Shown piece after piece: positions 2,103 through 32,900 of a DNA stretch of 36,856 nt. The DNA is from a virus, in IMG/VR virus record IMGVR_UViG_3300037106_000027, positions 1 through 36,856 of that record; one strand, 5' to 3'. Under the pieces are notes generated by a model. The model searched no databases. It was not told the DNA's origin and was given only the letters and a program-made list of their open reading frames with translations. Positions within the stretch are counted from its first letter, which is position 1. The number at the start of each line of letters is the position of its first letter. Made by a program: the position numbers and the translations under genes.

Positions 2103-2297
2103 TCACGCCGCCCGTTCTCCCCAATCGGAGTACTCCTCGGGTCGAATCTCGAGCTGCTGAAGCCTTCGGTAGAGCGTGGAGCGGCCCATTTGGAGAACAT
2201 AGGCCGCGCCGTCTTTGCTGCCGTGGGTTGCGCGCAGTCCGTTCACGATCGTCTCGCGAACAGCTTCGATAACGGTTTTGGGAGCGGGCGCGCTCAC
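2103..2297 (-). CDS. Fis-type helix-turn-helix protein
   Basis: 64 residues. The C-terminal half (GAAYVLQMGRSTLYRRLQQLEI) is a textbook Fis/NtrC-type (HTH_8) helix-turn-helix: an Ala-rich first helix, G/S turn and a TLYRRLQQL recognition helix. The N-terminal half is a short helix as in Fis. Its start overlaps the stop of the upstream minus-strand gene by 4 bases, so the two are co-translated. It is smaller than host Fis (about 98 residues) and has no receiver or ATPase domain. It is likely a phage regulator or DNA-bending protein. Confidence 0.65.
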   Translation of the reverse strand: MSAPAPKTVIEAVRETIVNGLRATHGSKDGAAYVLQMGRSTLYRRLQQLEIRPEEYSDWGERAA

Positions 2298-2542
2298 TCG
2301 TTCTTGCCCCCTGCAAGTAAGAGAACAATGCCGGCGGCGAGGCCGCCGAACAGAAAAATCCGAACGTCAGACAGCAAACGGATGCGATTGGCTTCGGAGC
2401 GGCGGAGATCGCCCATAACAGGGCACTCCTGTTCTGAACAGAGAACACGGGGGGCGCTGGGTCGCCATTTCGCATCGGCCATTGCTAGCCTCTGCATTTG
2501 CTTCAGGATAGGCCGGAAAACTCTTAGTGTAAAGTTCTTCAC
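2294..2542 (-). CDS. small membrane-anchored protein
   Basis: 82 residues from a GTG at 2542, chosen because GGAGAGGAG lies 6 bases upstream of it on the minus strand; the frame opens further back at 2602 without such a site. It is basic at the N-terminus, has two Cys (CSEQEC) in the middle and ends in one hydrophobic helix (IFLFGGLAAGIVLLLAGG) plus KNE. This predicts a C-terminal membrane anchor. It is co-translated with the Fis-like gene and divergent from the terminase block. It is not a recognised family. Confidence 0.5.
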   Translation of the reverse strand: MKNFTLRVFRPILKQMQRLAMADAKWRPSAPRVLCSEQECPVMGDLRRSEANRIRLLSDVRIFLFGGLAAGIVLLLAGGKNE

Positions 2543-2595
2543 GTTGTTCTCCTCTCCATTGGCCATTGGCTGCCCGCGTGCCGATGTAGGGTTGG
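2543..2595. promoter_or_regulatory. divergent intergenic region upstream of the virion block
   Basis: These 53 bases separate the minus-strand membrane-protein gene from the first packaging gene, so promoters for both sides should lie here or just inside the flanking genes. A tandem CATTGGC repeat occurs at 2557-2563 and 2564-2570. GCCGATGT at 2580-2587 resembles the -10 element of FliA-type sigma factors (GCCGATAA), but no matching -35 stands at the right distance. Functional assignment is weak. Confidence 0.3.
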
Positions 2596-3111
2596 ATGGC
2601 ACCGAAGAGTAAACCGAGAAAGCCCACCAGCCAGGCCAAGCGCAGAGTTCGGCGCGTGAAGGTCGCGCAGGGATTACTGGCCGGCAAGACGCCGGCGGTG
2701 ATCGCGCAGGAAGAGGGGATCAGCCGCGCGACAGCTTGCCGCGACGCTGCTTCTCCCGAATGCCGCATCCTCATCGCGAAGGCCCTGGACGGGCGCGCGG
2801 TGCGTATCGAGTCGCTCATAGATGATTCCTTGGACGCCATCGCCGCGGCGCTCAAGGCCTGCGCGTTTCAGCTCGTCGTCACCGACACCACGAAGGGCGA
2901 AGGCGGCGAAGTGCGCACGCACAAGTCCGTGCAAGTGGGCGTCGACCACTACGCGCGCATGACCGGGGTGCGGCGCCTGATTGACCTCTGTCTCGCTGGG
3001 AGACCCACTCCGAAACCCGATGAGGGACCCAAGGAGCTGGAGTCGATCACGTTTGAGCAGTTCAAAACTCTCCTGGAGAAACACACCCGTGGAAATACAG
3101 GCACGGAATGA
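2596..3111 (+). CDS. terminase small subunit-like protein (TerS)
   Basis: 171 residues, ATG at 2596. After a basic N-terminus rich in Lys/Arg (residues 1-22), residues 23-50 form a helix-turn-helix (AQGLLAGKTPAVIAQEEGIS, RATACRDAASPE) of the kind small terminase subunits use to bind pac/cos DNA. A long helical region follows (about 55-135), suited to ring oligomerisation, with an acidic C-terminus. It is the first gene of the virion block and lies upstream of TerL, separated only by the sigma-factor gene, whose start it overlaps by 23 bases. Identification rests on position and HTH layout, not on a specific signature. Confidence 0.6.
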   Translation: MAPKSKPRKPTSQAKRRVRRVKVAQGLLAGKTPAVIAQEEGISRATACRDAASPECRILIAKALDGRAVRIESLIDDSLDAIAAALKACAFQLVVTDTTKGEGGEVRTHKSVQVGVDHYARMTGVRRLIDLCLAGRPTPKPDEGPKELESITFEQFKTLLEKHTRGNTGTE

Positions 3112-3625
3112 GTTGGTCGAGAGGCACCTGCACCTGGCCAGGGCCGTTGCTTCGGCTCTGGTGAGCAGGCTGCCGTCCAACGTGGATATCAGGGAAGACC
3201 TGGAGGCTGAGGCCTCTTTGCAGTTGATTGCAGGCGTGGAACGGTACGACCCGCGCCGGGGGGTTCCCATCGACCTCTGGCTGACGCGGTTTCTGATGTG
3301 GCGTACCAGGGAAATGTTCCGGCGGCGGAACCTGCGCGAGGCGAAGGCGGACCAGTTACTCGATACCTACGACCGCGCCGACCCCGCGACGCAGGAGAGG
3401 GACGTTGACCACGCCCGGGTGCGGGCCAAAGTGCGGGCCCGGATCAACGAGCTGCCTGAACGCAGCCGCAAGGTGATCGAGATGCGCTACGACCACGGGC
3501 ACCGGCTGAAGCAGATCGGCAAAGACCTCAAGGTGAGCGAGAGCCGAACCTCACAGATCCACACGGAGGTGATGGCCGAACTGCGCGCCGATTGGAGGAT
3601 GCAGGAGCTGAGGCGTGCTGCGTGA
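3089..3625 (+). CDS. phage sigma-70-family factor, FliA/WhiG-like
   Basis: 178 residues. Region 2 spans about residues 10-75 (IREDLEAEASLQLI, VERYDPRRGVPIDLWLTRFL, RTREMFRR) and matches the core-binding and -10 region of sigma-28-type factors. Region 4 spans about 121-170 (LPERSRKVIEMRYDHGHRL, KQIGKDLKVSESRTSQIHTE) with a clear recognition helix. Region 3 is largely missing, replaced by a charged linker, which makes it ECF-sized though its regions read as FliA/WhiG. I start at GTG 3089, with GGAGAAA upstream, because residues encoded before it are not sigma-like. It overlaps TerS by 23 bases and TerL by 4. It would redirect host RNA polymerase, probably to late genes. Confidence 0.85.
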   Translation: MEIQARNELVERHLHLARAVASALVSRLPSNVDIREDLEAEASLQLIAGVERYDPRRGVPIDLWLTRFLMWRTREMFRRRNLREAKADQLLDTYDRADPATQERDVDHARVRAKVRARINELPERSRKVIEMRYDHGHRLKQIGKDLKVSESRTSQIHTEVMAELRADWRMQELRRAA

Positions 3626-5376
3626 CGTATGAGGGTCAGTACCTGACTGACTATGACGCGGCGTGGAACACGCACGCGAAGTGGTGCCGGCAGTGCCTCA
3701 CCATCCGCAATAAGCGCGGCGTGCCCGTGCCGATGTCGCTCGGCCCGGCGCAACGCCGGCTGAGCGATAAGATCCGCGAGCTGCGCGCAGCGGGGCGGCC
3801 GGTGCGCATCGTCTACCTCAAGGCCCGGCAGGTCTGGGTCTCCACCGGATTCGCCGCAGAGGTCATGCACGAGGTGCCCTTCGCGCCTGGGCAGCGCGCG
3901 CTGGTGGTCGCGCACGATGAGGACAGCGCCACCAACATTTTCGGCTACTACAAACAGTTCCATCAGGCGTTCAAGCCTTTCGCCAGGGGGCTGCCTCCGC
4001 AAGCGCGGTTCAGCGAAGAGGGGCTGATCGAGTACGTCAACGGCAGCCGCATCGAGGTGGCCACGGCGGGCACGACGACGGTAGGCCGCTCGAAGTCGCT
4101 GCGCTTCCTGCACCTGAGCGAGTTCGCCTTCTGGCCGAATCCCAAGGTGCTGATGGATGGGCTGATGCAGTCCGTCCCCGACGATCCCGACACGATGGTG
4201 GTGGTCGAGAGCACCGCCAACGGCATGGGCGGCGAGTTCTACCAGCTCTGGCAGCGCGCGATGGATCCGGCTGTCGAGACCGAATGGGTGCCGCTGTTCT
4301 TCGCCTGGTGGGAACACCCGGAGTACTCGCGCGATCTGGAGTGCTCGCGCCGCGAGTTCCAGGAGTCGCTCGACGCCGAGGAGCAAACGCTGATGCGCGT
4401 GCATCAGGTGACGTTCGAGCAGCTCGCCTGGAGGCGCTGGAAGATCGCCAACGACCTGGGCGGCAGCGTCGAGTCGTTCCATCAGGAGTTCCCTTCCACA
4501 CCCGACGAAGCCTTCATCGCGTCGGGCCGGCCGCGCTTCAGCCAGCCGCACCTGTCGCGGATGCCGGTCCGGGACGGGATGCGCTGCAACCTCGAGCTCG
4601 ACCAGGACAGCGGGCGCGAGACCGTAGCGGTTGTGGCCGACGAGCACGGCATCCTCACCGTCTTCAAGCGCCCGGCGGAGCGGCATCGCTACTCGATTGG
4701 CGTGGATGTGTGCGAGGGCGTGGATGTGAACGCGATCGCGGGGCGCAGCCAGATCGGTGGGGAGAATCCGGACTTCTCCGTGTCGTGCGTCTTGGACATT
4801 GAGACGTGCGAGCAAGTCGCGCTGATGCGCTGGCGGTTGCAGCCTTCGGCCTGGGCGCGGATGAATTACCTGCTGGGGCGCTGGTACAACTGGGCGTACA
4901 GCACGCCGGAAGCCAACGGGCCGGGGATCGCCTTCCTGGAGGAGCTGCTGCGCCTCGGCTATCCACCCGGCAAGATCTATCACCGCGAGCCCGACCCGAG
5001 CGAGCGCTACAGCACCGAGGCCTCGAACACCCTCGACAAACTCGGCTGGAAGACGACGACGGTCACCCGGCCGCAGCTCATCAGCAAACTGGACCGCGCC
5101 ATTCGCGACATGTCGCTGCAGATCTACGACGCGGTGACGCTGAGCGAGTGCCGCAGCTTCGTCATCAAAGCCTCGGGCAAGGCGGAACACGCCAACGGCT
5201 GCCACGACGATACCGTCATCGCGACGGCGCTGGCGCTGGTGGGCCTGGAGGCGGCGCCGCAGAGTGCGGACATTCGCGCGCAGCGCAAATCAGTCGAGCA
5301 GCTCGCCGGCCTCGGCGGTGTGCGTCGGTACGGCCAACGCCGATCAGAGGGTAGAGGTGCATTGATACGGCTTTGA
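3622..5376 (+). CDS. terminase large subunit (TerL), ATPase-nuclease
   Basis: 584 residues, starting at a GTG that overlaps the sigma-factor stop (GTGA at 3622-3625). ATPase domain: Walker-A-like KARQVWVST at residues 67-75 and Walker B FLHLSE at 162-167, with Glu167 the likely catalytic residue. RNase-H-like nuclease domain: Asp362 in SIGVDVCEG, Glu440 in AFLEE and the Asp529-Asp530 pair in HDDT followed by an Ala-rich helix, the three acidic clusters expected for the two-metal site. Length is within the usual TerL range. It pumps DNA into the prohead and cuts it, docking on the portal encoded downstream. Confidence 0.92.
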   Translation: MTYEGQYLTDYDAAWNTHAKWCRQCLTIRNKRGVPVPMSLGPAQRRLSDKIRELRAAGRPVRIVYLKARQVWVSTGFAAEVMHEVPFAPGQRALVVAHDEDSATNIFGYYKQFHQAFKPFARGLPPQARFSEEGLIEYVNGSRIEVATAGTTTVGRSKSLRFLHLSEFAFWPNPKVLMDGLMQSVPDDPDTMVVVESTANGMGGEFYQLWQRAMDPAVETEWVPLFFAWWEHPEYSRDLECSRREFQESLDAEEQTLMRVHQVTFEQLAWRRWKIANDLGGSVESFHQEFPSTPDEAFIASGRPRFSQPHLSRMPVRDGMRCNLELDQDSGRETVAVVADEHGILTVFKRPAERHRYSIGVDVCEGVDVNAIAGRSQIGGENPDFSVSCVLDIETCEQVALMRWRLQPSAWARMNYLLGRWYNWAYSTPEANGPGIAFLEELLRLGYPPGKIYHREPDPSERYSTEASNTLDKLGWKTTTVTRPQLISKLDRAIRDMSLQIYDAVTLSECRSFVIKASGKAEHANGCHDDTVIATALALVGLEAAPQSADIRAQRKSVEQLAGLGGVRRYGQRRSEGRGALIRL

Positions 5377-5918
5377 ATGTCCTGTGCAGAGGCGTGGCGC
5401 TGGCGAACGGGCAACACGATTGTGTGGTCTGCCATGGCGAGGGCTGGATCACGTGGGTGCGCCAGCCGCACGCCTGCAATTGCGTCTACCGCGCCGTGTT
5501 CCGGCTGTGCCTGGAGCGGCATCACCGGATGCGCTACGAGTTCAACGCCTGCCGGCCTTCGGTGAGCAAGCTGCGGCGCGGCGGCCTGGTGGCCGGCTAC
5601 CCGAGCGTGGAGTACATGGCTGACTTCGAACTGCTCTGCCGGCGCGTCCTCGATCCGTGGCACCGGAAGTTGTGGCGGCTGTTCCACATGCAGGAGCGGG
5701 AGTTCACCGACTGCCTGCTGCCGCTGCGGACGAACCGGGGCGCGTTCTTCCACGGCGTTTACCGCGTCGAGGAGCGTGTGGGGCGGGCGGCGATTGAGAT
5801 GGAACCGTACCCGCTTTACCCCTTCTCCGCCTACTTCGGGGGCACCGCGGTCGTGTTGATCCGCTCGCCAAAGGCGGAGGGCCGGTCCGTGTCCCACATT
5901 CAGGCGTTGGCCGCTTGA
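5373..5918 (+). CDS. zinc-finger protein with a possible HTH C-terminus
   Basis: About 181 residues from TTG 5373, which overlaps the TerL stop; a GTG at 5394 with AGAGG just before it is an alternative start. Near the N-terminus CVVCHGEG ... HACNC is a DnaJ-like Cys pattern. The C-terminal half (ADFELLCRRVL, HRKLWRLFHM, TNRGAFFHGVYRVEERVGRA) reads as a helical domain resembling an HTH or sigma region-4-like fold. From memory, similar zinc-plus-HTH proteins occur in proteobacterial phage islands, but I cannot name a family. Its position after the sigma factor and TerL would suit a transcription accessory such as an antiterminator; that is inference. Confidence 0.5.
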   Translation: MNVLCRGVALANGQHDCVVCHGEGWITWVRQPHACNCVYRAVFRLCLERHHRMRYEFNACRPSVSKLRRGGLVAGYPSVEYMADFELLCRRVLDPWHRKLWRLFHMQEREFTDCLLPLRTNRGAFFHGVYRVEERVGRAAIEMEPYPLYPFSAYFGGTAVVLIRSPKAEGRSVSHIQALAA

Positions 5919-5950
5919 CGGGCTGACGCCGATCAAAGGGTAGGCGGGAC

Positions 5951-6526: not shown

Positions 6527-8821
6527 ATGCTCCCGGGCCAGCCGCCGCAGCTTCCGATTCCGCCTGCGCAGTCGCCGCAGCCACCCTTGCCGCCGCCGGA
6601 TCTCCCGCCGCCGCCGGCAAGGGTTCCTCGCAAGGCCTACGCGCCGCAGATCGAGCTGCCCGACCACGAGCTGCAACGCCTGGCCAACCGGATCGAGGAA
6701 GGCTTCGAGGCGGCGCAGGTGGACCACACCGAGCGGATGGCGCGCTTCACTCGCGCCTATGCGCGCTGGCGCAACCGCGCCGAGCCCGCGGAAGCGGGCA
6801 AGGAAGACAAGGCGAATTTCCGCGTCCCGATGACGCAGTGGCAGACCTACATCAAGTGGGCCAAGGAGCTGGAGGCCATGTTCGGCGACGACGCCGAGAT
6901 CGTGGCCGAGCCGGTCGGCCCGAGCGATCACCGCAGCGCCGAGAAGGTCGAGGCCTTCGTCAATTGGCGGGTCTTCAACTCGATGCAGTTCGTCTCGCCG
7001 ATGGCGGTGTTCAGCTTCCGCAAGATCCTCTTCGGACGCGCTCACGCGCTGCTGGAGTGGGACCGGCGGACGTTTCGCGTGCCGATGGAAGACGGGGGCT
7101 GGGAAGACCAGGTCTGCTACGACGGCCAGGTGTTCAAGCCGCTCTGGCCCGACGACCTGGTGGTGCCAGGCGAGGACGCCGAGACGATTCAAGACTTCTC
7201 GTGGGTGATCCGCAAGTTCGACGCCACGCCCGACGACCTTCTGCACGGCGAGGATGATGGCACCTACGCCAACATCAGCGACAACCTGGATCAGATTCTC
7301 GCCTGGAGCGAGCAGCGGCAGCGGCGCACCTACGACGACCCGATGAAGCGCGAGGCCGACGAAGCCGAGGGCGTGGTGCGCGAGGGCAGCATGAGCGCGG
7401 CGAACACGCTGCGCGTGTGGGCCTGGTACGGGCGCTGGAGGCGACTGAAGGGCCGCAAGAGCGCGCGGCCGGAGAACGCCAAGGGGCGCGAACGCTATGA
7501 GAGCGATCTGCTGGTGTACTACCTGCCAGATTTGCGGCTGGTGGTCGGATGCCAGGACCTGGCAGAGATGTTCCCGACGTCGCCGGACCGGCGTCCGATT
7601 GTTGAGGCGGCGCTGGTGCATGACGGTAGCTACTGGTCGCCCGGGTTCTTCGAGCTGCTGGAATTGGTCGAAAACGAGCTCACTGTGGCCCACAACCTGG
7701 GCTCGCAGGCTGGGCAGTTTTCCGTGGGCCCGATCATTTTCTACGATCCGGCCAGCGGCTTCGATCCCGACAGCTTCGTGTATGAGCCGTTCGTCAGCGT
7801 GCCCGTCAAGAATCCTGCGGGCATCAACATCGTGCAGCCGAAGGCCGATCTGACTTACCCCATTACCGTAGGGCAGCAAGTTCAGGCCATCGGCGAGCGG
7901 TTGACCGGCCTGGATGATTCCAACGTGGGCCGCAGCTCCGACCGACCGAACGCGCCGCGCACCGCGCGGCAGTTCATCGGCCTCCTGGAGCAGGGCAACA
8001 TTCGCGCGTCGCTCGACACGCGCATGATGCGCGAGGATACCGCCCTCATACTCCGGCGGATCTGGGCGCTTGAGCAGATGTATGGTTCGGCGCGGGTGTT
8101 TTTCCGCGTCACCGAGGAGGACGCCAAGGGGCTGTTCGAGACCAGCCAGGGCGGCGCCTGGATGACGAGCGAGGAGCGCGGCGGCCGCTATGACTTCAAG
8201 CTGAATTTCGCCACGTCGGTCTGGTCGCGCGAAGCGCAGAAAGAGCGCCAGATGACGCTCTACCAACTCGACCTTCAGAACCCGCTGGTGGTGCAGAATC
8301 CGCGGGCGCTGTGGAAGGTTACCTCCCAGGTTCACAAGGCGCTGGGCGATCCGAACTTCGCCGACCTGGTGCCGGAGCCGCCCGACATGGGCGGCCCGAA
8401 GACGCCGCAAGAGGAGTGGACCTTGATGCAGGAGGGCCAGGACGTCACGATCCGGCCCGAGGACCACGACGACCTACACCTGCTGATCCATTTCAAGCAG
8501 TTGGCCCAAGAGCAAGCTGGGACCGACCCGGACGTGGGCGCGATCCAGATGCTGAAGCAGCACATCACGGATCACCAGCGGCAGCGGCAGGAAAAGAAGC
8601 TCATGGGCGCGCTGGCCAGCGCACTCACCACGCAGATCGCGGGGGCGCAGCGGCCAGGGATGCCGATGCAGCCGGGCGCTGCCGGCGCGCCAGGCATGGA
8701 CGGCTTGCAGCAGTTCCTGGGTCAGATGTCGGCAGCCGGGCAGCCACCGCAGAACGTAGCGCCGCCGCAACAGCCGGCGGCAGAAACCGGAGAAACACCG
8801 AACGATGAAGCAGGCCTATGA
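6527..8821 (+). CDS. portal protein
   Basis: 764 residues. A Pro-rich N-terminus (1-45) leads into a mixed helical body with NFRVPMTQWQTYIKWAKELE, FSFRKILFGRAHALLEW and WPDDLVVPGEDAETIQDFSW, and later long helices (NELTVAHNLGSQ, TARQFIGLLEQG) that look like the crown/stem of podovirus-type portals. The C-terminus is Gln/Gly/Pro-rich and low-complexity. Size, position soon after TerL and before scaffold and capsid, and the 'D-D-L-V-V-P-G' block support portal. No ribosome site precedes the ATG, so it probably relies on coupling with the gene ending one base before. It forms the dodecameric DNA channel that docks TerL and the tail adaptors. Confidence 0.8.
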   Translation: MLPGQPPQLPIPPAQSPQPPLPPPDLPPPPARVPRKAYAPQIELPDHELQRLANRIEEGFEAAQVDHTERMARFTRAYARWRNRAEPAEAGKEDKANFRVPMTQWQTYIKWAKELEAMFGDDAEIVAEPVGPSDHRSAEKVEAFVNWRVFNSMQFVSPMAVFSFRKILFGRAHALLEWDRRTFRVPMEDGGWEDQVCYDGQVFKPLWPDDLVVPGEDAETIQDFSWVIRKFDATPDDLLHGEDDGTYANISDNLDQILAWSEQRQRRTYDDPMKREADEAEGVVREGSMSAANTLRVWAWYGRWRRLKGRKSARPENAKGRERYESDLLVYYLPDLRLVVGCQDLAEMFPTSPDRRPIVEAALVHDGSYWSPGFFELLELVENELTVAHNLGSQAGQFSVGPIIFYDPASGFDPDSFVYEPFVSVPVKNPAGINIVQPKADLTYPITVGQQVQAIGERLTGLDDSNVGRSSDRPNAPRTARQFIGLLEQGNIRASLDTRMMREDTALILRRIWALEQMYGSARVFFRVTEEDAKGLFETSQGGAWMTSEERGGRYDFKLNFATSVWSREAQKERQMTLYQLDLQNPLVVQNPRALWKVTSQVHKALGDPNFADLVPEPPDMGGPKTPQEEWTLMQEGQDVTIRPEDHDDLHLLIHFKQLAQEQAGTDPDVGAIQMLKQHITDHQRQRQEKKLMGALASALTTQIAGAQRPGMPMQPGAAGAPGMDGLQQFLGQMSAAGQPPQNVAPPQQPAAETGETPNDEAGL

Positions 8822-13744: not shown

Positions 13745-13766
13745 GCGGCCCTGAAGACAGATTGAC

Positions 13767-13788
13767 GGGGCTGCCTGCGCGCGGCCCC
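13767..13788 (+). terminator. possible terminator after major capsid gene
   Basis: GGGGCTG (13767-13773) pairs with CGGCCCC (13782-13788), with one G-U pair and an 8-base loop, 22 bases after the capsid stop. It is followed by TCCTCT rather than a T-run, so any termination would be partial. The next gene has its own ribosome site (AAGGAC ... AAGGAAAA), so a partial stop here could set the high capsid-to-tail ratio. Confidence 0.4.
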
Positions 13789-13817
13789 TCCTCTGAAAGG
13801 ACACAAGGAAAACCACC

Positions 13818-16362: not shown

Positions 16363-17219
16363 CCTGGGGCGAGATCCGGCTGCTGCTGGTGCGCTTCCGC
16401 GCGGGCATTGACGTGGCTCAAGTGACCTCCTGGATGCAGGCGCGCTATGAGCTGATTCTCGACTTCCACGCCTGGAAGGGGCTCGAGGTCGAGACCTACC
16501 TGCAGACGGTCGCGGTGTATCAGACGGGCACCGTCAACGTCACGCAGGGCTCGACGGCGATCACCACGACGGGCACCTGGACCGGCTTCACCGGCCGCAA
16601 GATCCGCGTGGGCGGGCGCAGTGAGTTCTACACCATCACTTACTCAGGCTCGGCCTGGTCGCTCGACCGCGTGTACGAAGGCGACAGCGACGCGGCGGCG
16701 AGCTACTACGTTTTCCAGCACGTCTACGCGCTGCCCGCCGACCTGAAGACCCTCACGGCGCTGGACTCACCGGACACCGGCCTGCCTTTGGCGGACTGGA
16801 CCCGGGAGCAAATGCGCGAGGCGGTGGGGCGCGGGGCCACGCTGGGGCGGCCCGCGGCCTGGGCGCTGACCGACGCCGGCGACGTGGAAATCTGGCGGGT
16901 GCCGGAGGCCTCGACGGGCATACCGCTGCGCTACATCAAGACGGCTCCGGCCTTCACCGGAACGAACACGCGCGACTCCCCCCTGTCCTGGGTGCCGGCC
17001 AACACCATCATGGAGGGAGTGCGCGCGGACATCCTCTTCGCGCTCGAAGACTACAACGGCTCCGACCGCAAGGAGCGGGCCTTCGCCGAACAGCTCGCCA
17101 CGATGATGGGCAACGAAGCCATTCGCAAGGGCCCGCGCCCGCTGCGGATGGCCAGCGAGTACACACACCACCGGGTAGAGCGCGGCCTGCCGCGCAGAGG
17201 GAACTTCAGACTGCCATGA
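16359..17219 (+). CDS. head-tail adaptor-like protein with inserted beta domain
   Basis: 286 residues from ATG 16359, which overlaps the lectin gene stop. The N-terminus (VRFRAGIDVAQVTSWMQARY, ELILDFHAWKGLE) and C-terminus are helical. Between them lies a beta insertion (QTGTVNVTQGSTAIT, FTGRKIRVGGRSEFYTI, WSLDRVYEGDS), then VFQHVYALPADLKTL. This 'V-Y-x-T-G-T-V-x-V-T-x-G-S ... Y-x-L-P-x-D' pattern occurs in podovirus adaptor proteins that join portal and tail. The end is basic. Assembly partner: probably the portal above and the nozzle protein at 20663. Confidence 0.6.
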   Translation: MTWGEIRLLLVRFRAGIDVAQVTSWMQARYELILDFHAWKGLEVETYLQTVAVYQTGTVNVTQGSTAITTTGTWTGFTGRKIRVGGRSEFYTITYSGSAWSLDRVYEGDSDAAASYYVFQHVYALPADLKTLTALDSPDTGLPLADWTREQMREAVGRGATLGRPAAWALTDAGDVEIWRVPEASTGIPLRYIKTAPAFTGTNTRDSPLSWVPANTIMEGVRADILFALEDYNGSDRKERAFAEQLATMMGNEAIRKGPRPLRMASEYTHHRVERGLPRRGNFRLP

Positions 17220-19237
17220 ACACCCCAAAGTATCCACTGGCCGCCGTCGCCTTGAAGGACTTCGGCATCGCGCGCAACCGCGCCGAGACCACGCTGCTGG
17301 CGGCGATCACGTCGGCCTCGCAGACCACCTTCACGGCCTCGGGCAGCGGCTTCGCCGCGCCCTGCTTCGTCACCATCGACAACGAGATTCTGGCGATCTA
17401 CGACGTGACGGGCGACACCTTCACGGTGGGTTATGCGAGTTCGGGCAACGTGGACGGGCGTGGCTGGGACACGGCCAACGGCGGAGGCGCGGCCGCGGCG
17501 CACCTGCTTGGCGCGAAGGTGCGCATCCTGATCGACGCGCAACCGCTCAACCAGGCGTCGGTTGAATTGGTGGAGATCGAGAAGAAGCTCTCAACCGAGT
17601 TCATCAGCGTGCTGGACAAGGGCGCCGATCCTACGGGCAGGACCGACTCCACCGCCGCCTTTCAGGCCGCCATCGACGCGCTGGACATCAGTACGACCTA
17701 CGGCACGCTGCGCGGCACGCTCTACATCCCCAAGGGCGAGTACCTGATCTCCAGCATCGTGCTGAAACCCCGCATGACCATCCAGGGCGACACGAGCGTG
17801 ATCCGCAAGACGGGCTCGTCGACCGACCCGATGATGTACCTGCCGGATCTGGGCGTGTTCAGTCCGGACGTGATCCTGCGCGACTTCCAGCTCTTTGGCG
17901 ATCCGACCATCGTGCATGACGGGATCTTCCTCGATGGCCGGGCCTCGGTCGCCGGCGGCATCAGCAACGTGCTGGTGTACTGGTGCGGCGGCAACGGCAT
18001 CCACCTGGACCAGGCCAACGTCTATTACCTCCGCAACATCACCGCCCACGCCAACGGCCTCAGGGACATCTTCATCGAGCACTCGAACGACGTTTGGATG
18101 AGCGACATGACGACGCAGGGCGGGTATGCGAGTGACCCGATCCGGTGCTCCGTCGCGATCGTGGAAGCCAACACCTGCCAGGGCATCTACGGCAAGAACT
18201 TCCATTTCGAGCAGAACGAGTCGGTGCCGCACCTGAAATTGAACGGGGTCAGCGGCTACGACTTCAGCCAGTTGTCGCACTACTTCATGAACCCCACCGG
18301 AAGCCCGCGGACAGTCCCGGTGGTCATCGACATTGTGAACTCGCACGGGCAGATCCGCGAGAGCACGACCATTGTGAACAACGGCACGGTGACCATCACC
18401 GCCCACATTCACGACTACCTGGCGGGGACGTGGGACGACTACTACCCGAACTACCCCGTTACGGTGACCGGCTTCTACGGCGCCGGATCGGTTGGCTGCT
18501 GGTCGCGGCAGAGGGACGTTGCGACCCAGTGGGGCAACCACTACATCGCGGCCAAGCCCCCGGCTGCCGACCTCCCGAACTACTACTTCGGGATGTGGCT
18601 GGCCGGCAACGCCTGGATCTTCGGCGACGCCGAAGGGCCAGGACTGGGCAGCAACCTGCGGCGCAAGGCGGACAATACCGGCTTCGAAGCGATCGACAAG
18701 AGCAAGCCTTGTTGGGGCGTGATGTGCAACTACCTCAACGACACCATGACGGTGTTCCGCGCTCCTGCCGGCGCGAGCTTCGTGCCGGCGACGATCTTCA
18801 AGATTGAAGTCACCGGCGCCGGCGCGAAAACCTTCGTCGGCGCGATTCCCGGGCAGACCGGCAACGTCTACGAGGTGCGCAACGAAGCGGGTTCCCCGGT
18901 GTTCGCCGTCACCCCGGACAGCCTCACTCACGTGGCGGGGTTCAAGCTGGGGGCCGCGTCGGTCACGGCGGGGACGTTTGCCGTGCCGTCCAACGTGGCC
19001 AGCATGCGCTGCGACGCCACGGCGGGCCCGGTCACTCTCAGCCTGCCATCGGCGGCCACGGTGCCGGGGCGAGTGTTGTGGGCCAAGAAAGCCGACGCCA
19101 GCGCGAACCACGTCACGCTTACGCCAGCGGGCGGCGAAACCATCGACGGGGCCGCATCCTACGTGCTGGCGACGCTCTGGAAGTACGTGCAGATTGTCAG
19201 CGACGGCACCGCCTGGATGATTGTCGGGGCGAACTGA
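17216..19237 (+). CDS. tailspike/tail fibre with pectate-lyase-like beta-helix
   Basis: 673 residues. Residues 1-110 are a beta-rich head-binding part. From residue 132 (VLDKGADPTGRTDSTAAFQ, GTLYIPKGEYLISSIV) begins a Pectate_lyase_3-type beta-helix, running with rungs to about residue 400. The last 110 residues (TFAVPSNVASMRCDATAGPV, NHVTLTPAGGETIDGAASY, VQIVSDGTAWMIVG) form the beta-sandwich module often closing phage fibres. Probable receptor-binding spike, perhaps a polysaccharide depolymerase; Asp/Glu candidates exist but no active site can be asserted. ATGA overlap with the gene before. Confidence 0.75.
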   Translation: MNTPKYPLAAVALKDFGIARNRAETTLLAAITSASQTTFTASGSGFAAPCFVTIDNEILAIYDVTGDTFTVGYASSGNVDGRGWDTANGGGAAAAHLLGAKVRILIDAQPLNQASVELVEIEKKLSTEFISVLDKGADPTGRTDSTAAFQAAIDALDISTTYGTLRGTLYIPKGEYLISSIVLKPRMTIQGDTSVIRKTGSSTDPMMYLPDLGVFSPDVILRDFQLFGDPTIVHDGIFLDGRASVAGGISNVLVYWCGGNGIHLDQANVYYLRNITAHANGLRDIFIEHSNDVWMSDMTTQGGYASDPIRCSVAIVEANTCQGIYGKNFHFEQNESVPHLKLNGVSGYDFSQLSHYFMNPTGSPRTVPVVIDIVNSHGQIRESTTIVNNGTVTITAHIHDYLAGTWDDYYPNYPVTVTGFYGAGSVGCWSRQRDVATQWGNHYIAAKPPAADLPNYYFGMWLAGNAWIFGDAEGPGLGSNLRRKADNTGFEAIDKSKPCWGVMCNYLNDTMTVFRAPAGASFVPATIFKIEVTGAGAKTFVGAIPGQTGNVYEVRNEAGSPVFAVTPDSLTHVAGFKLGAASVTAGTFAVPSNVASMRCDATAGPVTLSLPSAATVPGRVLWAKKADASANHVTLTPAGGETIDGAASYVLATLWKYVQIVSDGTAWMIVGAN

Positions 19238-25687: not shown

Positions 25688-26935
25688 ATGCCAACGAACA
25701 ACCCGATCATCGACGGGATCATGGACGGGCTCCTGATCCGCGAGCACATGGCGAAGATGACGCAGGACCAGGGCGACTACGAACACCGCATGGCGGCGGA
25801 CCAGCGCGCGCAGCAGGAGTTTGAGAACAACATCGTCCAGCAGCGATGGCAGCACCAGCACCAGCAGACTCAGGACCAGCTTCAGGACATCAACACGCGC
25901 CTGGCGCTGGGCACGAACCCGGGCCTGATCCAGGTGCAGCCAGGCGAGGACACGCGCACGGTGCAGTTGCCGCTCGACGAGACGATGCAGAAGGCCTACG
26001 GCGGCATCCCTGCGCTTTCGATGAGCGTGCCGATCGACAACACCGTCGAGTATGGCGGCCGGCGCTACGCCATGCGCAGCGCGGAGGAACTCGAAGCCGA
26101 CAAGATGCGCGATCTGAACGCGACCAGCGCGCTGAAGCTGAAAGACACACTGGCGGCGAAGAGCCTGGAGCAACAGATGAACCAGGTGTATGTGCCGGGC
26201 ATCGGCTACGTGGACAAGAGCGTCGCTCCGAGCTTCATCAACTCGGCGTCGCGGGAGAAGGAGGGCGCGGCGAACCGAACCAACGCCGTCACGGTCGCCA
26301 ACATCCGCGGCTCGGCGACGCGCGACACAGCGGCGCGCCGCGACCAGTTGACCCCCAGCGGGGTCGAGTCTGTCCAATCCAACATCCGTAGGGATTTGGC
26401 CGCTCAAGAGCGGGCCGAAGCGCCGCTGGAGCAACTGCGCCAGCGGATCAAAGCCAAGGGGGATGGTAAAGCACTCAACTACACGACCTTCGATAGAGAC
26501 GGCCTTCCGGCTACTGTCAGTCTCACGTCAGAGGAGGCCACACAACGGCTCGGGGAAGTGGAGAACTCGCTGGCCGGGATTCGCAAGAAGAAGGCGCAGA
26601 TCTACCAGCGCATGCTGAACCACGGCTTCATCACTAGCGACGACTACGAGCGCATGGTCGGCGATTTGGGTCTGCCACCCGAACAGAAGACGCCCTCGCC
26701 GGCTCCCCAGTCGCACGCGCCCACAGCCGCTCCCACGCCGGCGCCGACGCCTGCGCCGAAACCGGCGGCAGCTCCGGCGGCCAATCGCCCCGCCAGCGCC
26801 GCCTCAACCGCGAGGCCGCCGCAGGCTGCGCTCGACGCCATTCCGCCCGGGCAGACGGCGACGTTCCGCAATGGCCAGGTGTGGACGAAGAACGCCGCTG
26901 GCCAGGTTACCCAGATCCAACCGCAGGCCCAGTGA
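25688..26935 (+). CDS. probable internal virion protein, coiled-coil and Pro/Ala-rich
   Basis: 415 residues. Residues 20-70 are Gln/Arg-rich and helical (RMAADQRAQQEFENNIVQQR), followed by a conserved-looking beta part (RTVQLPLDETMQKAYGGIPA, NTVEYGGRRYAMRSAEELEA). Further helices run to about 330, with a domain around ERMVGDLGLPPEQK. Residues about 335-385 are a Pro/Ala linker. The end (AIPPGQTATFRNGQVWTKNA) is a small beta motif. The TGATG end couples it to the giant polyvalent protein. It fits the T7 gp15-like slot by position; no sequence signature proves this. Confidence 0.5.
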   Translation: MPTNNPIIDGIMDGLLIREHMAKMTQDQGDYEHRMAADQRAQQEFENNIVQQRWQHQHQQTQDQLQDINTRLALGTNPGLIQVQPGEDTRTVQLPLDETMQKAYGGIPALSMSVPIDNTVEYGGRRYAMRSAEELEADKMRDLNATSALKLKDTLAAKSLEQQMNQVYVPGIGYVDKSVAPSFINSASREKEGAANRTNAVTVANIRGSATRDTAARRDQLTPSGVESVQSNIRRDLAAQERAEAPLEQLRQRIKAKGDGKALNYTTFDRDGLPATVSLTSEEATQRLGEVENSLAGIRKKKAQIYQRMLNHGFITSDDYERMVGDLGLPPEQKTPSPAPQSHAPTAAPTPAPTPAPKPAAAPAANRPASAASTARPPQAALDAIPPGQTATFRNGQVWTKNAAGQVTQIQPQAQ

Positions 26936-29900
26936 TGCCGAGCGAATGGGACATCGTCGATGTGTCGAAGCCGCCCGCCAAGCCCGACCCTTGGGCGGTC
27001 GTCGCGATCTCCCCATCCGCCACGCCGGCACCGCCCGCCGCTGACTCGAGCCCCAACGTCCCCGGTGCCGAGAAGACCGGCCTGCCCGGTCTGCCCGCCA
27101 TGCCCGTCTCGGTGACCGAGGAGCCGACGCTCCTCGAGCGCATCGGCAACGTGTTCGGTAAGGGCGCGCAGAATGCTGCCGACTTTCTGCTGCAGAACGC
27201 CAAAATGGGCATTGCGCCAGGCGCGCCCGTCGCTGCTGCGGCCCCTCCGCCGGGAATTACCGCGAAGCAGGCGACGCAGGCGGCCAAGACCTACGAGACC
27301 CCGATGCTCCCGGTCTCCGAGTTACTCCCCGAGAGTCCCAACGACGGGAACGTGACTAAGTTCGCCAGGGGGGCGCTCCAAGGGGCCGAGGGGCTGACCA
27401 CTCCGGTCAACCTGGCGCTGATGGCGGCGCTCGGCGCGGCCGGAGCTACGGCCAGGGCGTCAGTTGAACCGGCAGTACAGCAAGGCTGGCATTTGGCCGA
27501 CGCGGCGCTTTCCGCCTACTTCTCGGGCCAGGCCGCGCACGGATTGTATGGTGCCGGCAAGGATGCCGTGGAAGCGGTCGGCAAGGGCGACTGGGGCAAG
27601 GCCGCGACCGACCTCGGTTTGGGCACGGTGGACGGTCTGATCGCCTACTTGGGAGCGCGCAATGCCTTCAAGAACGTGCAGGGCGCGGCGGAGATCGGCC
27701 GGACGCAGCGCATTCTCCAGGAGAACCTGAACCGGCGGGAGGCCGCGCGGCGTGCGGCTGAACCCAAGCCTGCCACGGAGTCGATTCCGCCTGCTTCCGG
27801 CGCAGTTCCCACCGCGACGCGGCTGCTGCCTCCTGGGGAAGCGCCCGAAGCCAAGCCGCCAGCGCCGCCGCCTGAACTGCCGGGAGGGAAGAAGCTGCTG
27901 GCCCCCGGAGAAGCGCCGCTGCCCGAACCGCCGCCTGAAGTGCCTGCCGGATGGCAGATCGTCAAGAGCGAGCCCGCGCCTGAAGTCGAGCCAGCGGCTC
28001 CTCGCTCGGGGAGCGCGTGGCCGCAGGGGATCGCGCCGCCCGTGGGCGTCGAGGTGTTCGACCGCGCGGCGGAGCTGGCCCGGAGCCGAGGCAGCATTTC
28101 GCCTATCGTGCTTCAGCGTGAGCTGGAGATTCCACAGCTCGAGGCTCAGGGACTCTTCCGCCGCCTCATTGGCCAGGGGGTCGTCGACCGGATTGGACGC
28201 ATCCCCGCGCCGCCGGAGGATTCCGGACCGGCAGCGGCCCCGCCCCAGAGTGGAGCAGCCAAGGGCGCGCCCGCGATCCAGCCGAAGCCCGACTCAGTCG
28301 ATTACTACGACCAGGCTGTCAGCCTGGCGCGCCAGAACGGCGCGATCAGCCGCACCGGTCTGCAGAACGCGTTCGGCCTGAACCGGGACGACGCGCAGTC
28401 GCTGCTCAGCCGGATGATCCAGGGCGTCAACGGCGAGCCGGGCGTGGTCTCGCCGAACGGTAGGTTGATCGCTCCGCAGAAACCCGCTGTTGCGCCGGGC
28501 GGCCAGCGGGAGCTGCCGCTTGTGGCGCAGGGACCGGCGCAGGCGAGCCCGGAGAGCCCGGTCGAGGCTCCTCCATCCCCCGAAGCTCCCCCGCTTCCGC
28601 CAGCGGCCCCGCAGCCGCCGCAAGCGACGCTCTACGACCGCGCCGTCGAGTTCGGCGCGAAGTACGGCAAGGTCAGCCAGGCCGGTCTGCGGCTGCACCT
28701 GGGCATTAGCGCCAGTCGCGCCGACTCGCTTCTGACGCAGTTGTCGCAAGCGGGAAAGATCGACCCGAACACCAAGAAGTGGATCGGCGGCAGGACCGCC
28801 CCCATCGGCAAGCCGGCTCCTCCGCAGATTCTCCCCATAGACAACCGCCCGCCCATGACCTCGGCCCAGCCGGGCGCGCCCGTGACTCCGCTCCCGGCGC
28901 CGGCGCCCGCGCCCGCGGGCGATTTCGAGGGCGCGGCCGACGATCTTCCGCCCGAGCGGGTGGGCCGCACGGAAGAGGTCAGCACGCCCGAGGGGACGAA
29001 GGCGCAGGCGCAATGGCGGGTCGTCGATCTCGCCCACGACAACCTGCTCACGTCGCACAGTTACGCCGGGGTGGAGAACCCGGAGTATCCGCAGGAGTAT
29101 CAGAACCGCGACCGCTCGCGCATCGCCAGCGAGACGCAGATCCGCGGCATCGCCGCCAACCCGGTTGCCAAGCGGCTCAGCCAAAACTACCTGACGAGCG
29201 AGGGCGCGCCGATCTACGCCAACCGCGACGGCCGGCGGACGGTCATCTCCGGAAACGGGCGGACGGAAGCGATCAAGCTGGCCTACAAGCAAGGCACCGC
29301 CGCGGGCTACCGCGCGGGCCTGCCCGAGGAGCTGACCGCCGCCGGGATCGATCCGAAGGTGCTCGAAGGAATACAGCAGCCGATGCTGTCCAGGGCGCTG
29401 GTCGGCAAGATGCCGCTCGGCCGCATCGCCCGGGAATCCAACGCGCCCAGCGTCGCCGAGCGCAGCCCGGTCGAGCTGGCGCGGGCGGATGCCAAGCGCC
29501 TCACCGGCGCGCTGATGGAAGCCTTCAAGCCAGGCGAGGACGGGCGGATCGTCACCACCGAAAACTGGCCCTTCATTCAAACCTTCTTCCGCGAGCTGCT
29601 CACCGCCGCGGAGCGGGGGAAGTACACGCTCGGCAACGGCGGCATCAACCAGGCCGGCATCGCGCGCATTCGCAACGCGGTTTTCGCCAAAGCCTACGGG
29701 GAGTCGGCCGCGCTCGAAAACGTGGCCGAGGATCCCGACGACAATGTGCGCAGCATCACCGCCGCCATGCTGCGCGCGGCTCCGTCGTTTGCGCGCGTGG
29801 GGGAAGGCGTCGCCGCGGGCACGCTCCACGATCTCAACATCGCGCCCGACGTTGCCGCCGCCGCCGGCAAACTGTCGAGCCTCCGCGCGCAGGGCACCAC

Positions 29901-32900
29901 GGTCGAGGACTACCTGAACCAGGAGGAGCTGTTCGCGCCCGAACTGTCCCCGCTGGGCCGCGAGATGCTTCGCGTCTTCGGCGTCCACAGCCGCAGCTCC
30001 GCCCGGCTGGCGGAGATTCTGACTAACTACGCCAGCGCCGTCGAGGCGCTCGGCAGCCCTCAGCAAGCCAGCTTGCTGGGTGATACAATTCCGACCAGGG
30101 CCGAAGTTCTCGAGGCGGCAGTCGAGGCCACCGAGGCGAGAGCCAAGCTCCTGGCTGAGCAGCGAAAGGCCAAGAAAGATGTACAGTCCCAAGCACGTAA
30201 CGACGCGGCCGGCAGTGGTGGCGAAGTTGGTGACGTTGATGGACAAGGTCCATCAGGGCCAGACCGCGCAGCAGATCCGGCAGGAGTTCGAGCAGGAGCA
30301 GAAGCTCCGCCAGTTCAATCCGCCCCCCGGCAGCAAGCCCCAGTAGCGCCGTCGCCCCGACCTCTAGAACCGCAGCAACCGCCCGCGGCTACGACTGCGG
30401 CCTGGCGAGCGGGTGCTTCGGCGTTGCCTATCGACGTTCAGGAGATTCGTGATTGGTTGCGGGACAACGAAGGGACCGGGAAGCCTGCGACCGTTGAGTA
30501 CGCGAGGCAGTACCTGGCTGGGGCGGACTCTCAGGCCCGGCCGATGCCGCAAGCCGAACCGGCGGCGCAGCCGAAGGCGGAGGCATCCGCACCTGCCCCG
30601 CGCTTGCCCCACGAGCTCGCCAGTGCGAAGCCGAACTATGCCTTCGGAGCGAAGGAGTTCGCCCTCGATTTCGAGAGCGACATCGACAAAGCGGCTTTCA
30701 TCGCCGCGCAGTTTAAGCCATCGAAGGCCGATGCGCAGTACGTTGGCTTCGTTCGCCAGGCGACGGGGCTGTCGACGCAAGCGGTTCGATCCGCCGGTGT
30801 GCGCGTGCGCTCGGCCATCAAGGAGTTGGCGCGTGACGCAGAACCGGGAGTGCTGCGCGTGCCGGACGTCTTGGGGCGGCGCCTGAAGCCACCAGGGGGC
30901 GAGACATTCTTCGCCCCGAAGTTGAAGGATGCCCGCGGCGCGCGAAGCCCGCAAGAGTACTTCGCCGCGGCCGACTCCCGATACGAGGCGTTGCTGCGGG
31001 ATCGACCTGGCCATATTTACGTGAACGCCCCGGCCCACGGGTTAATTGTGAGCGCGCTGCGCCACGCGGGCCTTCCCGCGCAGAACTTCGCCGGCCTCAC
31101 GCTGGGACCGGCGGATGCCAACTTGCTGTACCGCGCCCTCGGGGAGTTTGAACAGACCGAGCAGGAGCCCGGCGTCCGCGCCGCGATTGGTCAGATGCGC
31201 GCGGCCATGCGCCAGGCGGCTGGCGAGAGCAAGACTCTGACTTTCGTAAGGAGCGGCCCCGACGTCTCCGCCATGGAACGGCGGACCGCGCGGCGGGAGG
31301 AGGAATTCCATCGGCAACAAATTCTGCGCACGCGCGGGAAGGTGCTCGAAGGTCATGTCGACTCACAGCGCCTCAGTCAAAACCAAACGGTTCACAAAGG
31401 CCTGAGGGCCATAGAGCGTGACCGCCACGAGACCGGGCAGCGCGCTTATGTGGAACTGGCTGCGAGCTTGGCCAGCGGGCAGTGGGGAGATCTCGGGCTG
31501 ACGCGAGAGGAGGCCATCGATGCGCTCCACGCTTACATCGGCGAGATCGTCCGGCTCCACGGAGACCAGGCAGGAGGTATTATCAACCATGTCCACCCAG
31601 CAATCCGAAACGCTGTCCAGGAACGACTGGCGGCATCCGGACAACCTGCAACAGTGGCTGCGCGAACGCTACGGCGACGGCCAGGTCACGACGCCGGGCC
31701 AGGTAGCGGCGGACAATTTTACCGACCTCTTCGAGGCGTACCGGAGGGGCGGCCAGAAGACCTTCCGAGCCAAGTTCGATCAGATCTTTCCGCCCGAACA
31801 GCACCCGTAGAACACGCCGGGCCCGGAACTCTGGACCTATTCGGAGAAGAGGCCAACCAAACCAGCCGCGAAGCCGCCAAGAGCGATGCCGCCAAACTCG
31901 AAGCCGACCGGCTCACCGCCGAGTTCGGCAGCGCGCTGAATCGCAATAACCTCCGCAAGAAACTGAAGCCCGGCGAAAAGCCGCAACAGGGCGACCTGTT
32001 TGGAGGGATGCCGGAGAAACCCGCGCAGGGCAAGCTACTGTTTCAGAAGGGCGGGACTGGTCCGCACGGTCCGATCTTCACCGAGTTCCGGCATGACGCC
32101 GCCGGCGCGATCGCCAAGCTGCGCCAGGCGCAGAGCGGCGAAGCCGTGGCGGCGCTGCACCATCCCGCGGTCGGGGACATTGATCTGATTTGGGGCGAGA
32201 GCGGCACTAGTCCGGGAAACGGCTACGGACTGGCAAAGCTGGCGAAATGGCATCCGGAAATCCTGGACAACCTGCAGGAGACGCTGGACACGATGACCGC
32301 TGCGGCGCGCAACGAGAACACGGTTCAATTGGACAGCGCGACGCACCACGCTGTCGTCCGCAGAAATTGGAAAGGGAACCCTAAGACTTGGCTGCTAACG
32401 GCCTTCGAAAAGAAGCAGCCGTCACTAGCCGGAAGGACGATGGACATTTCCGGCACGCGAGAGGCGCGGCGGGATGACACAGCTCCCCCGCCGAGTGGCG
32501 GCACTTCCAGTATGGCCCCAACCGGAGAGGGCGGCAAGCGGGAAAAGACCTCAGATTTCTGGAAAGACGAGAGCGGCGAATTCGACCTGGCGAACCTGCG
32601 GGCAGGGCTGCGCGAGAAGTTCGGCGAAGCGGCGAACCAGGCCAACTACACCGGTCTGGGAGCCAAGGACATATTCCTACGCAACTTGTCGCAATTGGAG
32701 AAAACTAGCTCCGCGGGCCACGCCGCAGCGGTCCGTGCGGCCGCCAGCAAGGGACAAGTGGCAGCACTGCTGCGCGCCGCCGTTCCGCGCATCGAGGCGG
32801 CCATTGGCAAGCGCGGGCCGACGTGGACCGAGTTCAGAACGGCGTTGATCGAAAGCCGGCTGCGGGGGATCCGCGAGCGGTGGCGCGCCATGGCCGAGCA

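Follow-up and report, generated by a model that had tools for sequence, protein, structure and literature searches.

What does a sigma factor do between the two terminase genes of a phage? The question is raised by a virus record of 36,856 nucleotides (hereafter the window, meaning this whole stretch of DNA), which is linear and a fragment, most early genes being missing. In one survey, sigma factors were present in about 13% of phage genomes (PMC9429907). An earlier note on this DNA had described a FliA/WhiG-type factor overlapped by packaging genes and proposed that it drives the virion block. Our analysis of the ORF, its counterparts in related loci, and its surroundings (Table 1) leads to a similar answer: with a probability of roughly two in three, the ORF encodes a late sigma that redirects host RNA polymerase to the packaging and virion operon, its own gene included.

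Table 1 Features around the sigma gene of the window. L003 is the closest distinct relative.
Feature	Position	Strand	Basis or remark
Fis-type HTH protein	2103..2297	−	PF02954 (HTH_8), 5e-8; 81% amino acid identity in L003
Small predicted membrane ORF (MGDLRRSEAN...)	2294..2416	−	ATG frame kept in L003; longer upstream starts broken there
Sigma-70-type promoter-like site, TTTACA-17-TATCCT	2505..2533	−	For leftward genes; conserved in L003
−10-like block GCCGATGTA ahead of terS (speculative)	2580..2588	+	Conserved in L003; resembles the FliA −10 element GCCGATAA
Probable small terminase (TerS)	2596..3111	+	Position, HTH; same-slot relatives in L003, L004, L008, and L009
Sigma-70 family factor	3089..3625	+	178 aa; regions 2 and 4 only; Pfam, NCBIfam, and PHROG matches, AlphaFold2 model, PDB fold
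Sigma region 2 (core binding, −10 recognition)	3113..3331	+	Residues 9–81; PF04542, 1e-6
Linker of ~35 aa where region 3 would be	3332..3442	+	Lowest model pLDDT; no Sigma70_r3 match
Sigma region 4 (−35 recognition HTH)	3443..3586	+	Residues 119–166; PF04545, 8e-14
Large terminase (TerL)	3622..5376	+	phrog_2 terminase large subunit, 7e-23; GTG start
Cys-motif (CxxC...CxC) protein with sigma-region-4-like HTH	5373..5918	+	Candidate second regulator

A predicted two-domain sigma factor upstream of terL

The sigma ORF starts with GTG at 3089, preceded by ctGGAGaaa, and ends with TGA at 3625, in agreement with the coordinates first assigned to it. In Pfam searches, Sigma70_r2 and Sigma70_r4 scored 28.9 bits (cut-off, 24) and 51.3 bits (cut-off, 24.1), respectively. 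Sigma70_r3 (PF04539) gave no match in the window sigma and 1 weak match among 25 members of the family, so that the original description of region 2 plus region 4, nearly without region 3, was borne out. Both domains of the sigma-70 superfamily are present, and the NCBIfam superfamily model TIGR02937 scored 72.3 bits against a cut-off of 42.9. The AlphaFold2 model based on a 25-row alignment was all-helical with a mean pLDDT of 91.4, and its top PDB matches were sigma chains (WhiG 6pfv, FliA 1rp3, and principal sigmas). By domain content and predicted fold, the ORF is confirmed to encode a genuine two-domain sigma-70 protein.

FliA_WhiG (TIGR02479) was the best NCBIfam subfamily for the window sigma, but its score of 83.4 bits, obtained over two stretches, lay far below the curated cut-off of 189.6 bits, which two host FliA-type proteins pass (224.8 and 228.2 bits). 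The region 3 expected of FliA/WhiG proteins is lacking in the phage sigmas, whereas region 4 is similar (ESR.SQIH motif). Eight phage sigma members scored 42–100 bits for the FliA_WhiG model, which was the best NCBIfam subfamily for most of those scanned. When the phage sigma profile was compared with the Acidobacteriota genomes of the clade MAG loci, prophage copies aside, the best host matches were FliA-type proteins (~1e-40), well ahead of most other host sigmas, including ECF-like ones. The window sigma has the architecture of ECF (group IV) factors, namely regions 2 and 4, a short linker, and no region 3, but by sequence it is nearest to FliA_WhiG and not to the ECF subfamilies. In the sigma tree, the window, L003, and a Bryobacterales prophage (L039) grouped together (99/97), and the deep branches were poorly resolved. 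Host FliA nested among the phage members, but on long branches and weakly supported, and the sigma may have been acquired once or more than once. The window sigma apparently derives from a FliA/WhiG-like stock that lacks region 3. Thus, the search with the sigma-28 HMM upheld the FliA/WhiG label as the nearest subfamily and did not uphold it as membership by the curated cut-off.

Overlap with the packaging genes

The stop codon of the upstream ORF (3109–3111) lies within the sigma gene, giving an overlap of 23 nt, and the sigma TGA (3623–3625) overlaps the TerL GTG (3622) by 4 nt (GTGA). In the same manner, the TerL stop and the TTG start of the next ORF overlap as TTGA. L003 shares the start position of the sigma and the GTGA junction. 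The overlap with both packaging genes suggests that the sigma is co-translated with them. Of the two terminase labels given earlier, that of the large subunit is confirmed by its PHROG match. The TerS candidate had no confident TerS family match, and its identity is probable, resting mainly on position, the HTH, and weak homologies. With this proviso for the upstream gene, the overlap by packaging genes on both sides was as the earlier note had stated.

Conservation of the sigma gene beside terL

All ORFs of 128 loci and of the window were searched with a profile derived from the sigma. The TerL clade was defined by a TerL profile score of >560 bits (49 non-redundant loci), and 45 of these were assessable, having a sigma match upstream or else 1.2 kb or more of sequence on that side. 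The sigma ended within 300 nt of TerL in 26 of the 45 loci and lay within 3.7 kb of it in 9 more; none was found in 10. Shared ancestry makes these loci non-independent. Among 50 loci outside the clade with >1.2 kb of upstream sequence, none had a sigma adjacent to TerL. Three loci outside the clade had a partial sigma-like ORF ~1.5–2 kb off, and the short stretches of more distant terminase loci taken from Acidobacteriota genomes (L139–L167) contained no such sigma. TerL identity of the clade to the window was ~38–91%, and identity to the window sigma was mostly 18–31% among the aligned sigmas (54% for L003); the slot is thus better conserved than the sequence. The boundary of packaging genes in a late operon, where a late sigma or an Xpf-type regulator would be sought, is where the gene was found in the window map and in these 26 loci. 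The ten clade members without a sigma near TerL imply that the sigma is not obligatory or that other regulators substitute for it.

A role mainly in reprogramming host genes, as a moron or auxiliary gene like the sporulation-like sigmas of Bacillus phages, would make the location among packaging genes incidental. Some phage sigmas act on genes of the host and are not needed for lytic growth (PMC9429907), and the window sigma is nearer to host FliA than to other host sigma families. Morons are usually sporadic, yet the slot beside TerL is common to most of the clade; moreover, the overlaps described above point to co-translation with packaging genes. We consider a primarily host-directed role unlikely. 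A late sigma serving the phage operon is supported by the retention of the gene in the clade despite identities of only ~20–30% between most of its members.

The search for the sigma in cultured phage records gave no match. The nearest cultured TerLs, among those listed, had <30% identity, and the cultured phages CRP-7 and MW202692 have no gene annotated as sigma beside TerL. Two loci of the clade search showed variant arrangements: L079 has two sigma-like ORFs in tandem immediately 5′ of TerL (4853–5943), and L006 has the sigma in two overlapping ORFs in different frames, region 2 followed by region 4 (1358–1889), for which a frameshift, an error, or a programmed slip are candidate readings.

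In the sigma-less locus L037, from a Terriglobia MAG, a NusG-like protein (NusG, 8e-10; KOW, 9e-6) is encoded 5′ of TerS (~7870–8375). A search for NusG in 44 viral records of the clade found none, and this MAG locus is the only one with a match. The protein is possibly an antiterminator replacing the sigma; if this neighborhood is the site of the late-transcription regulator, such a protein ahead of TerS would be expected.

Divergence of the sigma gene from that of L003

The DNA of the window and L003 is ~86% identical over 6.6 kb around TerL, and the sigma gene is the least similar segment: its DNA windows were 0.63–0.73 identical, against 0.83–0.95 for TerL, 0.85–0.98 for the portal gene, and 83–95% for most flanks. 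The dN value of the sigma (0.38) exceeded those of TerS (0.17) and of the gene downstream of TerL (0.10). The sigma also had a raised dS (0.89, against 0.28–0.46 elsewhere), so that purely fast evolution is less likely than an exchange of alleles or an earlier split. Omega was 0.43 for the whole sigma, 0.19 for region 2, and 0.83 for region 4, and the two proteins were 66% identical in region 2 and 42% in region 4. The stronger divergence of region 4 could reflect altered promoter specificity. With packaging and portal genes otherwise similar, the raised divergence of the sigma opens the question whether sibling phages are set apart by promoter specificity.

The same divergence, together with the omega of region 4, would also be expected of a gene that is decaying or unconstrained and retained only through its overlap with essential packaging genes. 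The open frame, the full domains, and the omega values of the whole gene and of region 2 argue against decay, and relaxed selection explains the raised dS less well than an exchanged or older allele does; we regard this explanation as very improbable.

A protein that has lost region 3 and whose region 4 changes fast might also no longer be a full sigma, its region 4 bringing the host holoenzyme to a late promoter as an ArpU/RinA-like activator would. The late regulators known from the vicinity of terS are activators (PMC13123087). However, region 2, which is better conserved than region 4 between the window and L003, was recognized in 24 of 25 sigma relatives, versus 18 of 25 for the main region 4 model of Pfam. 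Sigmas of the ECF group function with two domains and no region 3. We consider an activator role improbable here.

Promoter-like sites of the rightward operon

The genes from 2596 to 35528 form one dense rightward block with spacers of at most ~75 nt. The 6.5 kb common to the window and L003 contained, over both strands, a single sigma-70-like site, TTTACA-17-TATCCT, identical in position and spacing in both phages, and no sigma-70-like promoter for the rightward operon was found there. This absence favors control by the phage sigma as weak evidence, because the promoters of a GC-rich Acidobacteriota host may differ from the sigma-70 consensus. The leftward site would serve the small membrane ORF, the Fis-type HTH gene, and another HTH gene. 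Behind this conserved site lie two leftward HTH genes, at 1343–1846 (HTH_17-like) and 2103–2297 (Fis-type).

Most candidates for a cognate promoter were rejected. The FliA consensus TAAAGTTT-N10-12-GCCGATAA scored at best 11 of 16 on the plus strand of the window and 12 on the minus strand, and Markov sequences gave 11–12. TAAAGTTC at 2530, 5′ of TerS and conserved in L003, was considered as a −35 element, but it is more readily accounted for by the leftward TTTACA, of which it is the reverse complement. The 6-mer GCCGAT occurred in three spacers (expected, 0.3), but sets of nine random segments also often have 6-mers in common. For the −10-like block GCCGATGTA, which is kept as a speculative element, sharing among spacers was not above the null. 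The motif search suggested in the earlier note thus found no motif common to the spacers beyond chance and no cognate late promoter. As a refutation of late control this is weak, because one dense rightward block could run from one promoter.

A Cys-motif protein encoded after terL

A protein family with conserved cysteines is encoded in ~20 clade loci, usually immediately 3′ of TerL. In 12 aligned members, the Cys residues (CxxC, CxC) are invariant and the HTH stretch is conserved. The protein of the window has no Pfam family match, and members gave only marginal PHROG matches. In hhalign comparison with the sigma alignment, the region-4 part was aligned with an E-value of 5e-4 and a probability of 33%. 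The AlphaFold2 model resembled sigma region-4 domains (SigD, SigC, and SigE; TMt ~0.7, 2–3 Å), with E-values that are individually insignificant. From these comparisons, the Cys-motif protein is plausibly a region-4-like regulator. The family is unannotated in Pfam and PHROGs and deserves a name. In L028, which has no sigma, the Cys-motif protein is encoded immediately 5′ of TerL. A tentative extension, which we hold to be doubtful, is that the terminase module carries a two-part switch, with the sigma before TerL and a Cys-motif partner after it, and that the promoter specificity of the sigma diversifies between sibling phages faster than its surroundings, so that related prophages sharing a host do not fire each other's late genes.

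Host and lifestyle

TerL relatives in IMG/VR were 31–100% identical to that of the window. Among 84,980 cellular genomes, all loci with at least 39% identity to the window TerL were in Acidobacteriota (L035, L036, L037, and L039). The L039 contig, from Bryobacterales, carries a TerL-clade phage region beside clear chromosomal genes (phosphoribosyltransferase, UPF0182, amidohydrolase, and protein kinase). Because the cellular loci of the clade are all in Acidobacteriota and one lies on a clear bacterial contig, the window phage probably infects soil Acidobacteriota, a conclusion that is strong for the clade. No further close-clade member was found among 396 genomes drawn from Acidobacteriota. 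Integrases are present in 4 viral relatives and, with the bacterial genes of the Bryobacterales contig, fit temperate phages that use bacterial RNA polymerase. A T7-type RNA polymerase (PF00940) had no match in the window or in 14 relatives, in line with the earlier statement that the window has no polymerase gene; as the search control was also silent, the absence itself is unproven. Acidobacteriota are abundant in soil, and their viruses are little known (PMC11924767).

Comparison with known late regulators and proposed function

T4 gp55, named in the earlier note, is a late sigma of region-2 type that works with sliding-clamp-linked co-factors; by description, it is likened to the window sigma as a proposed phage late sigma. 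For phiEco32 and 7-11, redirection of host RNA polymerase to late genes by phage sigmas has been proven, and the 7-11 sigma (gp47) drives late genes with the host core enzyme from a gene deep inside the late cluster (PMC8948821). By description, the window sigma resembles gp47 and phiEco32 gp36 as a probable late phage sigma that would act with host core RNA polymerase; gp36 lacks region 4, unlike the window sigma, and multiple late promoters are mapped in those systems. Xpf of PBSX, which has relatives in Bacillus phages, is encoded in the order Xpf-TerS-TerL, with the late cassette under its control, and is a small sigma-like protein next to the terminases (172 aa in B. pumilus) (PMC8347963). 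It differs from the window sigma in gene order (sigma-TerS-TerL versus TerS-sigma-TerL) and in its hosts, and the two are likened by description. RinA and Ltr are encoded just 5′ of terS or the late promoter and switch on packaging and structural genes (PMC13123087); these too are late regulators beside the terminase, but small activators (Ltrs, ~130 aa) and not two-domain sigmas. Hence, the contrast drawn in the earlier note, that phage sigmas usually sit with late regulators rather than in the terminase operon, is a false one: Xpf, RinA, and Ltr lie beside the terminase, and the late cluster of 7-11 includes its sigma gene. Only the slot between TerS and TerL is unusual. New are the conserved TerS-sigma-TerL order, the raised divergence of the sigma, its FliA-like stock combined with the lack of region 3, and the region-4-like protein encoded nearby.

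In the mechanism that we propose, the sigma would bind host core RNA polymerase, displacing the housekeeping sigma on phage DNA, and would recognize a promoter upstream of TerS, where the rightward operon starts, whereby packaging and virion genes would be transcribed late. Because the sigma gene is the second in the operon that it would activate, positive feedback would turn a low basal level of transcription into an all-or-none late switch. The host sigma would serve the leftward regulatory genes from their conserved sigma-70-like promoter, and the region-4-like protein after TerL may, as a guess, assist the switch. Driving the virion block is thus the best-supported function, favored by conserved synteny, the precedents, and the lack of a rightward sigma-70-like promoter; this part of the earlier proposal stands, and a cognate promoter was not obtained. 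The suggested link between packaging and late transcription would at present amount to co-expression. If the proposal is true, lysogeny or early growth would give way to virion production through a simple switch that amplifies itself, and in uncultured phages the sigma would help to locate late genes and to time them.

Other features of the window

A GC-rich inverted repeat, GGGGCtgcctgcgcgcGGCCCC, lies at 13745–13817 in the spacer 3′ of the capsid gene and is perhaps an attenuator or processing site. The gene at 17216–19237 probably encodes a tailspike, with a fold of pectate-lyase/rhamnogalacturonase type (PF12708, 3e-14). The region 26881–35055 encodes a protein of 2724 aa with ddrB-like ParB, FtsK gamma, and weak PBECR1 matches, which suggest a polyvalent protein that leaves the virion together with the DNA.
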